Below, piece by piece: positions 19,904-46,809 of a DNA stretch of 46,809 nucleotides. The stretch spans positions 1 to 46,809 of the forward strand of contig JAJPHU010000091.1 in the NCBI GenBank assembly GCA_021325115.1. The letters are read 5' to 3'. Under the pieces are notes generated by a model. It did no database searches. It saw only the letters and a program-made list of their open reading frames with translations, and had not been told where the DNA came from. The stretch comes from Planctomycetota bacterium (lineage in GTDB: Bacteria > Planctomycetota > Planctomycetia > Gemmatales > Gemmataceae). Each line of letters starts with the position of its first letter. Within the stretch, counting starts at the first letter, position 1. Made by a program: the position numbers and the translations under genes.

Positions 19904-19938
19904 ATTGCAACTCCCTGATTAGGTCTTGACTCCAAAGC

Positions 19939-20088
19939 GAACCACAGAGTCACAGAGAACACAAAGAGAAGACACGAAGAAAAGACAAAAAGAAAGAGAA
20001 TAACCAAATAACCAGACCTAAACTGTTGTTTATTTTTGTTTCTTGTTTTTTCTTTTCTCTGTGTTCTCTGCGATTCTATGGTTAGTTC
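19939..20088. repeat. intergenic inverted repeat, AACCACAGAGTCACAGAG family
   Basis: Terminal inverted repeats of about 30 bases (GAACCACAGAGTCACAGAG... and its near complement) around an AT-rich, purine-to-pyrimidine-switching core. It fills the gap between the propeller-PHP gene stop and the UxaC-like start. Other copies: 34581-34693 and, inside a coding region, 45005-45144. Confidence 0.85.
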
Positions 20089-20096
20089 TTCATTTT

Positions 20097-34576: not shown

Positions 34577-34580
34577 CAAA

Positions 34581-34693
34581 CGAACCACAGAGTCACAAAG
34601 AACATAAAGAAGACATAAAGAAAAAACAGAAAAAGAATTTCAATATCTCTTTTTGTGTGTTCTTCTCCATATTCTCTGTGACTCTGTGGTTCG
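34581..34693. repeat. intergenic inverted repeat, AACCACAGAGTCACAGAG family
   Basis: Perfect 17-base ends (CGAACCACAGAGTCACA) extended by imperfect pairing (AAAGAACATAAAG against the complement of CTCCATATTCTCTG) around a short AT-rich centre. It occupies nearly all of the gap between the Gfo/Idh stop and the phosphoesterase start and could attenuate read-through. Confidence 0.88.
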
Positions 34694-34711
34694 TTCTTCG
34701 TTTTGAATACC

Positions 34712-42990: not shown

Positions 42991-43557
42991 CTATGGCTTA
43001 TCGGCGTCCGCCTCAACACGAAGGCGGTCAAGGACGTTCTCTACCCCAACCGTGGTGTTCGCCAACTCGACAGCACGGCGGCGTTGCGTCAGGTCGGCGA
43101 CGGTGCCGTTCAATTCGACCACGCCCGGCCCGGCCAGACGCACCTGCACATCGGCGCCGGTCATGTCGCTGTCCCAGCGCAGCCGCAGGGCAACGCGGCT
43201 ATCCAGGCTGGCTTCGCTTAGCGAACCACGCACCGCCCCCCAGCCATTATGCAGCTTATCGCGCAGACGCCCTGTCACGCCATCGAATTTGGCAGCGGTC
43301 TTGTGGAAGACGCGCGCCAGCAAGTCGGCGTCTTGGCTGCAACCGCAGCTTGTCAACGCTAAGCTCAATATCAGCCCTAGAGCGCATTGCAAGTAGATGG
43401 AGCGGCTATATGTCTTCCTCCCTCCCTCCTTGTGGGGGAGGGCTGGGGTGAGGGGTAGGACGCTCTCCCCCCCCACCCCAACTCTCCCCCACAAGGAGGG
43501 AGGGAGAAAAACGCTACACCCACTTGCAATGCGCTCTAGCCGGAAGCGTCCGCCCAT
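42991..43557 (-). CDS. BON-domain lipoprotein interrupted by an in-frame MITE-like element
   Basis: Currently 188 codons from ATG 43557, which follows a perfect AAGGAG at eight bases. Codons 1-6 read MGGRFR. Codons 7-59 are the 53-codon element at 43377-43539. Then the frame resumes with LGLILSLALTSC, the rest of a lipoprotein signal peptide with Cys as lipid site, and a BON-like domain (about residues 115-185: RVALRLRWDSDMTGADVQVR...GVVELNGTVADLTQRRRAVEL..VGVENVLDRLRVE). BON domains bind membranes or peptidoglycan-associated partners. With the insertion, the charged leader is separated from the hydrophobic core, so export may fail unless an internal TTG (just before QCALGLILSLALTSC) starts translation. 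It lies downstream of the RND adaptor gene. Confidence 0.8.
   Translation of the reverse strand: MGGRFRLERIASGCSVFLPPSLWGRVGVGGESVLPLTPALPHKEGGRKTYSRSIYLQCALGLILSLALTSCGCSQDADLLARVFHKTAAKFDGVTGRLRDKLHNGWGAVRGSLSEASLDSRVALRLRWDSDMTGADVQVRLAGPGVVELNGTVADLTQRRRAVELANTTVGVENVLDRLRVEADADKP
43377..43539. mobile_element. MITE-like element with 18-bp perfect terminal inverted repeats and CTAG duplication
   Basis: CTAGAGCGCATTGCAAGT at the left end and its exact reverse complement at the right, 163 bases in all. The inner part is a second long inverted pair rich in CTCCCTCCTTGTGGGGGAG. Counting CTAG as the duplicated target leaves 159 bases, exactly 53 codons, open in the frame of the BON lipoprotein gene. 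No transposase is encoded, so any movement would need one in trans. Confidence 0.85.
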
Positions 43558-43686: not shown

Positions 43687-45162
43687 TTACGGCTGACGCG
43701 GACGAATGATCACGGTCTGGCCGTCATGCACTTCGGAGAGGTTACTCTCTACGATCTGCTCCGTTCCGGTGAACGACTCCCAGGGACCCCCCGGCCGCGG
43801 CTGTTTTTTCAGCACTTCGACACGAGCGCTATCGCCGGCGGCCAGTTCAATCGGCAGGCGCCGCGCTTTACCATCTTCCACCTGGTAGCAGTAGCTCTGG
43901 TAGCCGCGCGTCACGTCGCCTTCGGTGGCCACGGCGGAACGCGGCAAAGTCAACCGGCCAGGCACATCGGCGCGGAGCGTGACATAGGCGTACATACCGG
44001 GCCGCAGCGGACCATCCTTGTTGGGCAAGTCGATCTCTGCTCGCAGTGTGCGTGTGGCGGGGTCCACTGACCAGGAAGTCCGGGACACCTGTCCCGTGAA
44101 CGTCTGCCCCGGCAACACCTGGACGCGAACTTGCGCCTCAGCCCCTCTTTGGACCCAAGGAACAGCATTCTCCGGCACCTGTATGAAAATACGCATCAAA
44201 TCAGTGCGCTGCACAACGAAGAGGGGCTTGTCCTTGCCGACAGCCGCCGTTTGCACGAAATCGCCGGTGTTGATGTGCCTCTGGGTCACGACGCAATCGT
44301 AGGGAGCAAGCAAGCGGGCATAATCGAGCATGGTCCGTGCGTAATCGCGCTCTTGCCGGGCCACATCCAGATGATCTTGGGCCACGGCCAGGTCGGCTTG
44401 GGCCTTGCTCCAGTGGGCCTTGCTCTCGACCCGAAATGCCAGCGCGTACTTGACGGCGGCCTCGGCCTCGGCCAAGCTGGCCCGTGCCGTCTCGAAGCCG
44501 AGCTGCGCTTCCTCAATGTTTTCTTTGTGGATCACTTGCTCCATTCGAGCCAGGCGGTCATATTGCGATTTCATGCGGTGATAGCGGGCCTGGGCGGCTA
44601 ACCGTTGCGCCTCGGCTGCGGCAACTTTGGCCTCGGCGCTGTGGAAGGCGGCCTCGGCTGCCTCTGCCGCTCGCTGCGCTTGCTCAATCGCCGATTGGGC
44701 CTGCCGTACCAGCGCTTCCCTCTGCCGCAGCTCGACTTCGCGTTCCGGCACCCATAGCTCCGCCAGGATCTCGCCCTTGTGCAGTACGGCGCCGATGTCT
44801 TTCCAGCCCTCCTTGACGTACCCGGCGACCTTGGCGAATATCGGTGTCTCCTCGAACGCCTCGATGGCGCCGGGCTGGGAAACCTCCCGATGAAGGACGG
44901 CGTATTGCGGTGAAATGACCGTAACCGCCACGGCAGCCGGAGTGTCTGGCACTGCAGCCGGCGCGGCACCCATCGGCACGCGGCTACAACCAGATGCCGA
45001 AAAGCTAACCACAGAATCACAGAGAATACAGAAAAAGAAAGAAGAAAGAAAACAGGAAGCACTCAGGCTTCCTTTCCCCTTCTTGCAATTGAATGGCTCT
45101 TTTTCTCCTTTGAATTTCTGTTTTCTCTGTAACTTGGTGGTTAGCGCTTGAAACTTATTCAT
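43687..45162 (-). CDS. RND efflux periplasmic adaptor subunit (HlyD/AcrA type)
   Basis: 491 residues from ATG 45162 (MNKFQAL), seven bases after GGAGG. The ORF-track start further upstream would overlap the permease gene. After a signal region ending in SASGC come the beta-barrel/lipoyl half (PIFAKVAGYVKEGWKDIGAVLHKGEILAEL) and a long alpha-helical hairpin (REALVRQAQSAIEQ... to LDVARQERDYART). Then come the second lipoyl half (LLAPYDCVVTQRHINTGDFV), a beta-barrel (AVPWVQRGAEAQVRVQVLPGQ) and a membrane-proximal domain. It bridges the RND permease to an outer-membrane channel, which is not seen here. Residues about 7-49 are encoded by a CCACAGAG-family repeat that supplies the hydrophobic core of the signal peptide (FLSSFFFCILC). 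Confidence 0.92.
   Translation of the reverse strand: MNKFQALTTKLQRKQKFKGEKEPFNCKKGKGSLSASCFLSSFFFCILCDSVVSFSASGCSRVPMGAAPAAVPDTPAAVAVTVISPQYAVLHREVSQPGAIEAFEETPIFAKVAGYVKEGWKDIGAVLHKGEILAELWVPEREVELRQREALVRQAQSAIEQAQRAAEAAEAAFHSAEAKVAAAEAQRLAAQARYHRMKSQYDRLARMEQVIHKENIEEAQLGFETARASLAEAEAAVKYALAFRVESKAHWSKAQADLAVAQDHLDVARQERDYARTMLDYARLLAPYDCVVTQRHINTGDFVQTAAVGKDKPLFVVQRTDLMRIFIQVPENAVPWVQRGAEAQVRVQVLPGQTFTGQVSRTSWSVDPATRTLRAEIDLPNKDGPLRPGMYAYVTLRADVPGRLTLPRSAVATEGDVTRGYQSYCYQVEDGKARRLPIELAAGDSARVEVLKKQPRPGGPWESFTGTEQIVESNLSEVHDGQTVIIRPRQP
45005..45144. repeat. CCACAGAG-family inverted repeat inside the adaptor's signal-peptide region
   Basis: CTAACCACAGAATCACAGAG at the left and a complementary GTTTTCTCTGTAACTTGGTGG at the right, about 140 bases. 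Unlike the two intergenic copies, it is read through by the adaptor gene. Confidence 0.8.
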
Positions 45163-46809
45163 GATGTCCCTCCGGGGCAAAATATGGGCTGGCCGGGTCA
45201 TCGGGATCGAGCGAGGCAGAACGAACGGGACCGGCCATGATGATAGCGAACAGCATGGGCAAGAACGTGAGCGTGGCCAGGGTAGAAGCGGCCAGGCCGC
45301 CGATGACGGCGCGACCCAAGGGCGCCATCTGCTGACCACCTTCGCCCAGCGCCAGGGCCATTGGCATCATGCCGGCCAGCATGGCGCAGCTGGTCATCAG
45401 GATGGGCCGTAGCCGGCTTGACGCTCCCTGCACCGCCGCCTCGCTCGCCGACCAGCCCTGCCGCCGATTCTCCTCCGCAAACGTCACCAACAAAATGGCA
45501 TTGGACACCGCCACACCGATGGCCATGATTGCCCCCATGAACGATTGAATGTTCAGCGTCGTGCCGGTCACTCCCAGCATTACGGCCACGCCGGCAAGGA
45601 CCGCTGGTACTGCCGAGACCGACGCCAAGGCCAAACGGATCGACTGAAAATAAGCCGTCAGCAACAAGAAAATAACTACGATCGCCAAACTCAATCCCAG
45701 CGCCAGGCCGCGGAATATTTGCTCAAACGGCTCAATCTGCCCACGTACGGCCACTTCGACGCCGCGCGGCGGATCGCCGGCTGCAGTGATTGCTTTCTGG
45801 ATGTGCTGGGCCACGCGCCCCAGATCTTCGCCTTCGATGTTAGCTGTCATGCTAATGACACGCCGCATGTTGTAGCGATCGTATTCGCCCGGCATCGTCC
45901 CTTCCCGAATCGAAGCCACATCGCGCACCAGGAGTTGTTTATCGCTTTTGCCTTTGATAGGCACCATACCGATGGCGTTGGGTGAATCCATCTGAAAAGG
46001 CGGCACTTCCACCTGCACCTGGTAGCCGATGCCGGTCGCTGGATCGGCCCAGAAATTGAGTACAACAAAACGACTCGATGAAGTGGCCGAAATCAAGGAC
46101 CGGCTGACGTCGCCAGCAGTCACCCCGCTTAGTCCCGCCCGTTCGCGATCCACGTGTACCTCCACGGCGGGATAATCCAGCGATTGCGCAATTTGCAGAT
46201 CGCGTAATGAGGATATGCCAGCTAATTGCTCGAAAATCTTGCTGGCGTAGGTGCGGTTGTCTTGCATGTTGCGGCCGCTGACAGCCACTTCCACCGGCGT
46301 GGGTGAGCCGAAGCTCATGACCGTGTTAATGATGTCGCCCGGCTCGAAGGAAAGGCGAAGTTGGCGCACCTGGGACTCGACCTTATCGGGGGATAGTCCT
46401 TCGGCGAGCAATCTCTGCCGCAGCCAGGCGCCGAGGTGCTGTGGCAGCTTCTGCCGTAGTTTTTCTTTGAAATCACTGATTTTTACACCGCTCCCGCGAC
46501 GCAGCACCACGCGCAGGAACGCTTCTTCCGGCCCGCGCATCCACTGGTGAATGGCGCTGATGGTATAAGCAGTGGGGACCAGGCCGACATAGCCGGCCGA
46601 GATGGCGATGTTGTCATCCCCGGCCTCCTCTTTAATTAGAGCCAGGGCTTGCAGAGTGATTTCCTCGGTGGTTTCGATGCGTGTGCCGTCGGCGGCGCGG
46701 AGACGCAGTTGAAACTGCCCGGAATCCACGGTAGGGAAGATCTCCCAACCGAGCCGGCCGCCGACCAGCCAGACCAACAGGACGGCAAGGGCAAGATAAG
46801 CGCCGGCCA
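45155..46809 (-). CDS. RND efflux permease (AcrB/CusA superfamily), N-terminal part beyond window
   Basis: About 551 codons of the C-terminal half; the frame stays open to the right edge, so the TTG start in the ORF track is not real. The periplasmic porter segment has the block PGEYDRYNMRRVISMTANI. The RND membrane helices follow: ALGLSLAIVVIFLLLTAYFQS, VSAVPAVLAGVAVMLGVTGTTLNIQSFMGAIMAIGVAVSNAILLVTFAEENRRQG and SCAMLAGMMPMALALGEGGQQMAPLGRAVIGGLAASTLATLTFLPMLFAII. It exports small molecules or metals using the proton gradient. The GVAVSNAILLV helix is the hydrophobe-type rather than clearly the metal type. It overlaps the adaptor gene by eight bases, with the permease first, the reverse of the common adaptor-permease order. 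Confidence 0.93.
   Translation of the reverse strand, partial: AGAYLALAVLLVWLVGGRLGWEIFPTVDSGQFQLRLRAADGTRIETTEEITLQALALIKEEAGDDNIAISAGYVGLVPTAYTISAIHQWMRGPEEAFLRVVLRRGSGVKISDFKEKLRQKLPQHLGAWLRQRLLAEGLSPDKVESQVRQLRLSFEPGDIINTVMSFGSPTPVEVAVSGRNMQDNRTYASKIFEQLAGISSLRDLQIAQSLDYPAVEVHVDRERAGLSGVTAGDVSRSLISATSSSRFVVLNFWADPATGIGYQVQVEVPPFQMDSPNAIGMVPIKGKSDKQLLVRDVASIREGTMPGEYDRYNMRRVISMTANIEGEDLGRVAQHIQKAITAAGDPPRGVEVAVRGQIEPFEQIFRGLALGLSLAIVVIFLLLTAYFQSIRLALASVSAVPAVLAGVAVMLGVTGTTLNIQSFMGAIMAIGVAVSNAILLVTFAEENRRQGWSASEAAVQGASSRLRPILMTSCAMLAGMMPMALALGEGGQQMAPLGRAVIGGLAASTLATLTFLPMLFAIIMAGPVRSASLDPDDPASPYFAPEGHHE

Follow-up and report, generated by a model that had tools for sequence, protein, structure and literature searches.

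Insertion of a palindromic element of the CCACAGAG family has probably replaced the core of the signal peptide of an RND efflux adaptor in a member of the Planctomycetota, and the segment encoded by the element would now serve as the signal. The gene lies in the window, the 46,809-nucleotide stretch of contig JAJPHU010000091.1 that was analyzed (Table 1). A MITE-like, non-coding repeat is proposed to have entered the adaptor gene near its 5' end, behind codons ~4-6 and ahead of the lipobox, where it would have displaced some eight codons of the original core while keeping, as judged by comparison, the ribosome binding site, the start, and the reading frame. The stretch that it encodes, charged and then hydrophobic, would be arranged roughly like a signal peptide, with the native cleavage-site region behind it, and may now act as a Sec signal or signal anchor. 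A like event appears to have taken place in at least three, and probably four, further exported proteins encoded by the host genome (G000), where the element supplies the start codon as well.

Table 1. Coordinates of the adaptor locus, its palindromic element, and further element copies in the window
Feature	Position	Strand	Remarks
RND efflux adaptor gene (HlyD_D23/HlyD_3), 491 aa	43687..45162	-	ATG 45160-45162; start common to orthologue in G002
Adaptor Shine-Dalgarno GGAGGG	45168..45173	-	sequence reading; conserved in G002
RND permease gene (ACR_tran), 3' part	45155..46809	-	8-base overlap with adaptor start
CCACAGAG-family palindromic element, ~148 bp	45001..45148	.	arms 45004-45047 and 45102-45145; encodes adaptor residues ~6-53
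Purine-rich arm, read first; K/R/Q/E-rich part of adaptor N-terminus	45102..45145	-	
Hydrophobic core CFLSSFFFCILC, residues 37-48	45019..45054	-	from the pyrimidine-rich side of the element
Asp49, element-encoded	45016..45018	-	breaks PS51257 lipoprotein pattern
Native lipobox remnant SASGC, residues 55-59	44986..45000	-	orthologue has AASGC
Further element copy, intergenic	34579..34698	.	
Further element copy	19935..20090	.	

The adaptor gene and its orthologues

The product of the gene matches HlyD/CusB barrel-sandwich domains (PF16576, E 4e-23; PF13437, E 3e-14) and the gene adjoins that of a permease (PF00873, E 5e-69), a combination characteristic of RND periplasmic adaptors. The permease stop codon TAA, at 45155-45157, creates the 8-base overlap with the adaptor ATG. 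The sequence-only reading had regarded the start as fixed by GGAGG and this overlap, and the nearest orthologue (G002, 83% identical) bears this out, as it has the same Shine-Dalgarno sequence, ATG, and overlap but no repeat. This identity argues against initiation downstream of or inside the repeat, by which most of the repeat would be a 5' leader and the annotated N-terminus would be absent. Such a start is very improbable, even though the element supplies the ATG at other loci, often after a purine-rich stretch, and the window copy has a CTG (residue 33) behind GGGGAAAGGAAG; no in-frame ATG, GTG, or TTG occurs inside the element ahead of the core, and a start at Met64 would leave the adaptor without any signal.

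The arms of the element are 44 nt each and 80% complementary, and its RNA strand has a folding energy of -62.2 kcal/mol (z = -6.7 against shuffles); comparison of the element with Rfam matched no known RNA element. The adaptor residues assigned to the repeat from the letters alone (about 7-49) proved nearly right, the arms setting slightly wider limits (6-53), and the repeat does supply the only hydrophobic core of the adaptor, at residues 37-48. The KD12 maximum of this core is 2.43, against 1.91-2.18 in the orthologues, with a 99th percentile of 2.03 for 549 internal segments of mature proteins. The n-region that precedes it is unusually long (~36 aa), charged, and K/R-rich, so that the Sec-type order of a positive n-region followed by a hydrophobic core is present. 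Signal-peptide character was judged from hydropathy and the PS51257 pattern, which calls for six residues before the lipobox free of D, E, R, and K and for a Cys at position 15-35. All three adaptor orthologues match this sequence pattern, with the Cys at 17 or 29, and the window adaptor does not, as Asp49 falls in the six-residue stretch and the Cys is at 59. Lipidation of the adaptor may thus be impaired and is doubtful, while Sec targeting is likely from these features. Classical HlyD-type adaptors use an uncleaved membrane anchor, and as a sub-case of signal replacement the element-encoded stretch could be such an anchor and not a lipoprotein signal. The same two departures from the lipoprotein rule and the 12-residue core after many positive charges are compatible with an anchor, which is nevertheless rather unlikely: a stable anchor would be expected to have a longer core with less serine (although a crude 19-residue scale is positive), and the native, lipobox-like ASGC remains.

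The G002 adaptor has a short lipoprotein signal of its own at the N-terminus, MNKASLLVVGMLAASGC. When its start region, MNKASLLVVGMLAASGCSRAP, is set against MNKFQA...FSASGCSRVP of the window, the element lies between the two ends. About eight native codons are missing from the window adaptor, the core LLVVGMLA among them, and the ...SASGC end alone remains, which indicates that the repeat replaced the native signal. An orthologue without the repeat that has the same ATG and a native core next to it had been named beforehand as evidence against a repeat-derived signal, and G002 is literally such a case; yet the absence of that core from the window gene supports replacement. In two further relatives, G001 and G003, the adaptor has no repeat at the site, and its native signal, different again, ends in WSGC. 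The site, filled in the host and empty in G002, G001, and G003, is that of a recently mobile element, which by parsimony would have entered in the host lineage. An assembly artefact was considered unlikely, as the genes on either side and the 8-base overlap agree with those of G002, and a second case occurs in two genomes.

Element-derived signals in other exported proteins

A search for further proteins with the repeat in their signal, proposed in the sequence-only reading, was successful: element-derived signal sequences were detected in a prolyl oligopeptidase, a DUF1570 lipoprotein, a DUF3352 protein, and an esterase of the host genome and, with less certainty, in two more proteins. The gene of the prolyl oligopeptidase (PF02897) has lost its Shine-Dalgarno sequence, its start, and its ~15 initial codons to the element; MLKLSTWSVLVLVGILFRMTTLWADE of G002 becomes MFLMTRFSFFSLYFCVSVVSILFSMTPLWADE in the host, with the join at ILFxMxxLWADE in both genomes. 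The DUF1570 lipoprotein takes its start and n-region from the element, fused at LGLALLFSLGC, and a residual element arm lies upstream at this locus in G002. The esterase (alpha/beta hydrolase) starts MRLRFFSLRVWFFLRIILLCFFLLCVLGDSVVK in the host, as compared with MITHRCHSRPEGLWTYLLVSLIFLGIPGIWA in G002. For the DUF3352 protein, the host signal MGACFLSRTFRFGIFFKVLWAFVVSSSVSWAATPRE has a diverged version in G002, MCACFFPRTVLFWVWLCFLWDWGVGCPLLWAATPRE, whereas G001 has the native MRKYVSILLLASLLPAASPAAGPRE (MRKYVSILLL...) and G003 a similar native signal; at this locus the end of the preceding gene is shared, and what remains of the element can be aligned along its length. The 32 element-derived codons of G000 and G002 align without an indel, at a dN/dS of 0.38; the frame thus appears to have been kept while the palindrome decays, and in this one genome pair the element-derived signal seems to have been retained after speciation. 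The genes C79 and C40 also start inside an element and have a good signal; no orthologue of the C79 gene was found among ten relatives, and in C40, a BNR gene, the orthology and the native N-terminus are ambiguous. Among 43 genes adjoining elements, all seven with element-encoded N-termini look secretory, and a hydrophobic N-terminus is present in 5 of the 36 whose start lies beyond the element (Fisher p = 2.5e-5, or 3.4e-4 with only the five orthologue-checked genes), a test that is partly circular because the starts were chosen by hand and two of the seven genes are without a checked orthologue.

Base composition offers a reason why the arms read as signals. The 3' 60 nt of the elements are open and hydrophobic in 45% of readings (both orientations, three frames); the corresponding values are 0% for the 5' 60 nt and 2.5% for random 60-mers of the window. 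Composition-shuffled arms reach 39%, which identifies base composition as the cause of the hydrophobic reading, and a sequence-specific signal design was rejected as the shuffled arms do nearly as well. Whichever way the element lies, the purine arm is read before the pyrimidine arm, and an open frame therefore gives a charged segment and then a hydrophobic one. The claim that the pyrimidine-rich strand reads as Phe/Ser/Leu/Cys-rich text held as well, with Phe, Leu, Ser, Cys, and Val in most open frames.

These results also bear on the view that the insertion is a lesion, in which the lipoprotein signal was destroyed and the open frame is luck, with a mislocalised protein or an operon on its way to decay. 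The failure of the adaptor to match the pattern found in its orthologues would agree with a lesion, as would a strong hairpin that begins ~14 nt past the ATG and could lower translation. In addition, chance alone leaves 24% of element frames open throughout, for which reason an open frame was rejected as proof of selection. However, the adaptor frame is open across all 491 codons, element included, the mature part is conserved (dN/dS 0.13 against G002, a figure that mostly reflects the time before the insertion), and the core is at least as hydrophobic as the native ones. The same replacement is moreover seen in several exported proteins, one of them apparently kept across speciation, and a lesion is considered unlikely. 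On the preferred reading, signal replacement, signal peptides are the N-termini likeliest to survive an insertion, given that almost any charged-then-hydrophobic sequence is tolerated. Of the original proposal that the repeat was adopted as an export signal and offers a route to new signals, the first part gains support from several exported proteins whose signal text comes from the repeat; the second must be reworded as turnover and not gain of export, because every protein with a usable orthologue already had a signal.

Comparison with known repeat systems

To our knowledge, the gain and replacement of bacterial signal peptides are largely unexplained. In-frame palindromes (Rickettsia) and a repeat-derived predicted signal (RU-2) are already known. 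RU-2, an enterobacterial MITE-like repeat of ~168 bp, forms residues 1-30 of the predicted signal peptide of Yersinia pestis YPO1552 (Delihas 2007, PMC2759123); in other genera, the native signals of its relatives are unrelated to it (PMC2759123). The likeness is that a small dispersed repeat supplies a putative signal peptide where relatives have native ones; however, RU-2 belongs to another repeat family and phylum and is one predicted case compared across genera, whereas the CCACAGAG replacements concern several genes of one genome, with congeners sharing the start or the neighbours, and one of them has diverged and yet been kept. Rickettsia palindromic elements (RPEs) are palindromic repeats of ~150 bp that occur in frame in protein-coding genes (PMC10969869), and the adaptor element resembles them as an in-frame palindrome in the ORF of a conserved gene whose orthologue is without it. 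By description, RPEs carry a conserved peptide frame and sit in many kinds of ORF, while copies of the CCACAGAG element are almost all intergenic, the coding ones lie at exported N-termini, and the arms are variable. PARCELs (palindromic amphipathic repeat coding elements) are palindromic coding DNA associated with membrane-targeted proteins (PMC2996958), and differ in forming tandem 25-residue repeat domains as opposed to single signal-replacing insertions. A survey of Enterobacterales described whole signal peptides gained or lost as N-terminal insertions or deletions (PMC5952966), as here; in contrast, its ISEScan search for transposable elements near N-termini found none, and no repeat source was identified (PMC5952966).

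What appears to be new, on the basis of sequence comparison, is the occurrence of several replacements in one genome relative to congeners, one of them maintained past speciation, together with the compositional explanation. These observations suggest repeat insertion as a means for bacteria to renew their signal peptides. More tentatively, palindromes with purine and pyrimidine arms might be portable signal modules and a recurrent source of signal turnover in genomes that carry such repeats. Such a module could possibly work in either orientation and would bring a charged segment and a hydrophobic core, along with something like a Shine-Dalgarno sequence and, in some copies, the start codon. 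With copies of the repeat family in both lineages of a species split, replacements can be tested in several proteins, and there is a simple compositional reason for the repeat to read as a signal. For annotators, N-termini in repeat-rich genomes may be miscalled, or real ones dismissed as repeat artefacts.

The repeat family in the host and other genomes

A similarity search of the host genome with the adaptor element returned 55 similar places. The 18-base end motif AACCACAGAGTCACAGAG gave 91+85 genome matches at <=3 mismatches, against 2+3 for a reversed-pattern control, so the repeat is not a chance match. An arm-profile search located 88 elements, 78 of which have both arms in + then - order; their ends read AAGARCTAACCACAGAGTCACAGAG, the size is mostly 110-170 bp among those measured, and the GC content is 0.32-0.47, as opposed to ~0.58 in the flanks. 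The short size, the many dispersed copies (~88), and the terminal inverted repeats (78/88 with paired arms) are those of MITE-like elements. Arm sequences differ strongly from copy to copy. Few copies lie outside intergenic DNA, and those that code form the N-termini of exported proteins. At the adaptor and prolyl oligopeptidase junctions, compared by eye with G002, target bases seem to have been replaced and not duplicated.

End-motif hits were patchy among 299 relatives: the host has 118, the three congeners have few or none (G002 11, G001 1, G003 0), and some other genera have >100 hits per genome. G014, G016, G018, G040, G055, and G079 have 100 or more, with 0 in sister genomes. Such jumps in copy number between related genera suggest bursts, whatever drives them. 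An exact 27-mer of the repeat is present in several phyla. No convincing case of signal-peptide use was found among 54 elements examined from named genomes, and 57 elements from other genomes of the family included one (L272, in another genus). In a literature search by repeat sequence, a 16-mer had no match and 8-mer matches were uninformative.

The repeats also trim the 3' ends of host genes: 30 of the 83 genes upstream of elements stop inside the element or at its edge, often at the element's own TAA (CTAACC), such as at C182:24000, C309:5940, and C79:4491. In L030 and L077 (C103:7675-7953 and C323:9587-9801), GGGAGGG-type repeats are nested within CCACAGAG elements. The gene downstream of the adaptor, encoding a small putative lipoprotein (window 42991-43557, - strand), contains a different palindromic element (43377-43539), with outer arms CTAGAGCGCATTGCAAGT and an inner GGGAGGG stem, which lies in frame between MGGRFR and the native core GLILSLALTSCGC; the orthologue in G002, which has no element, starts as MSRRTWQRLMGSLALLSC.
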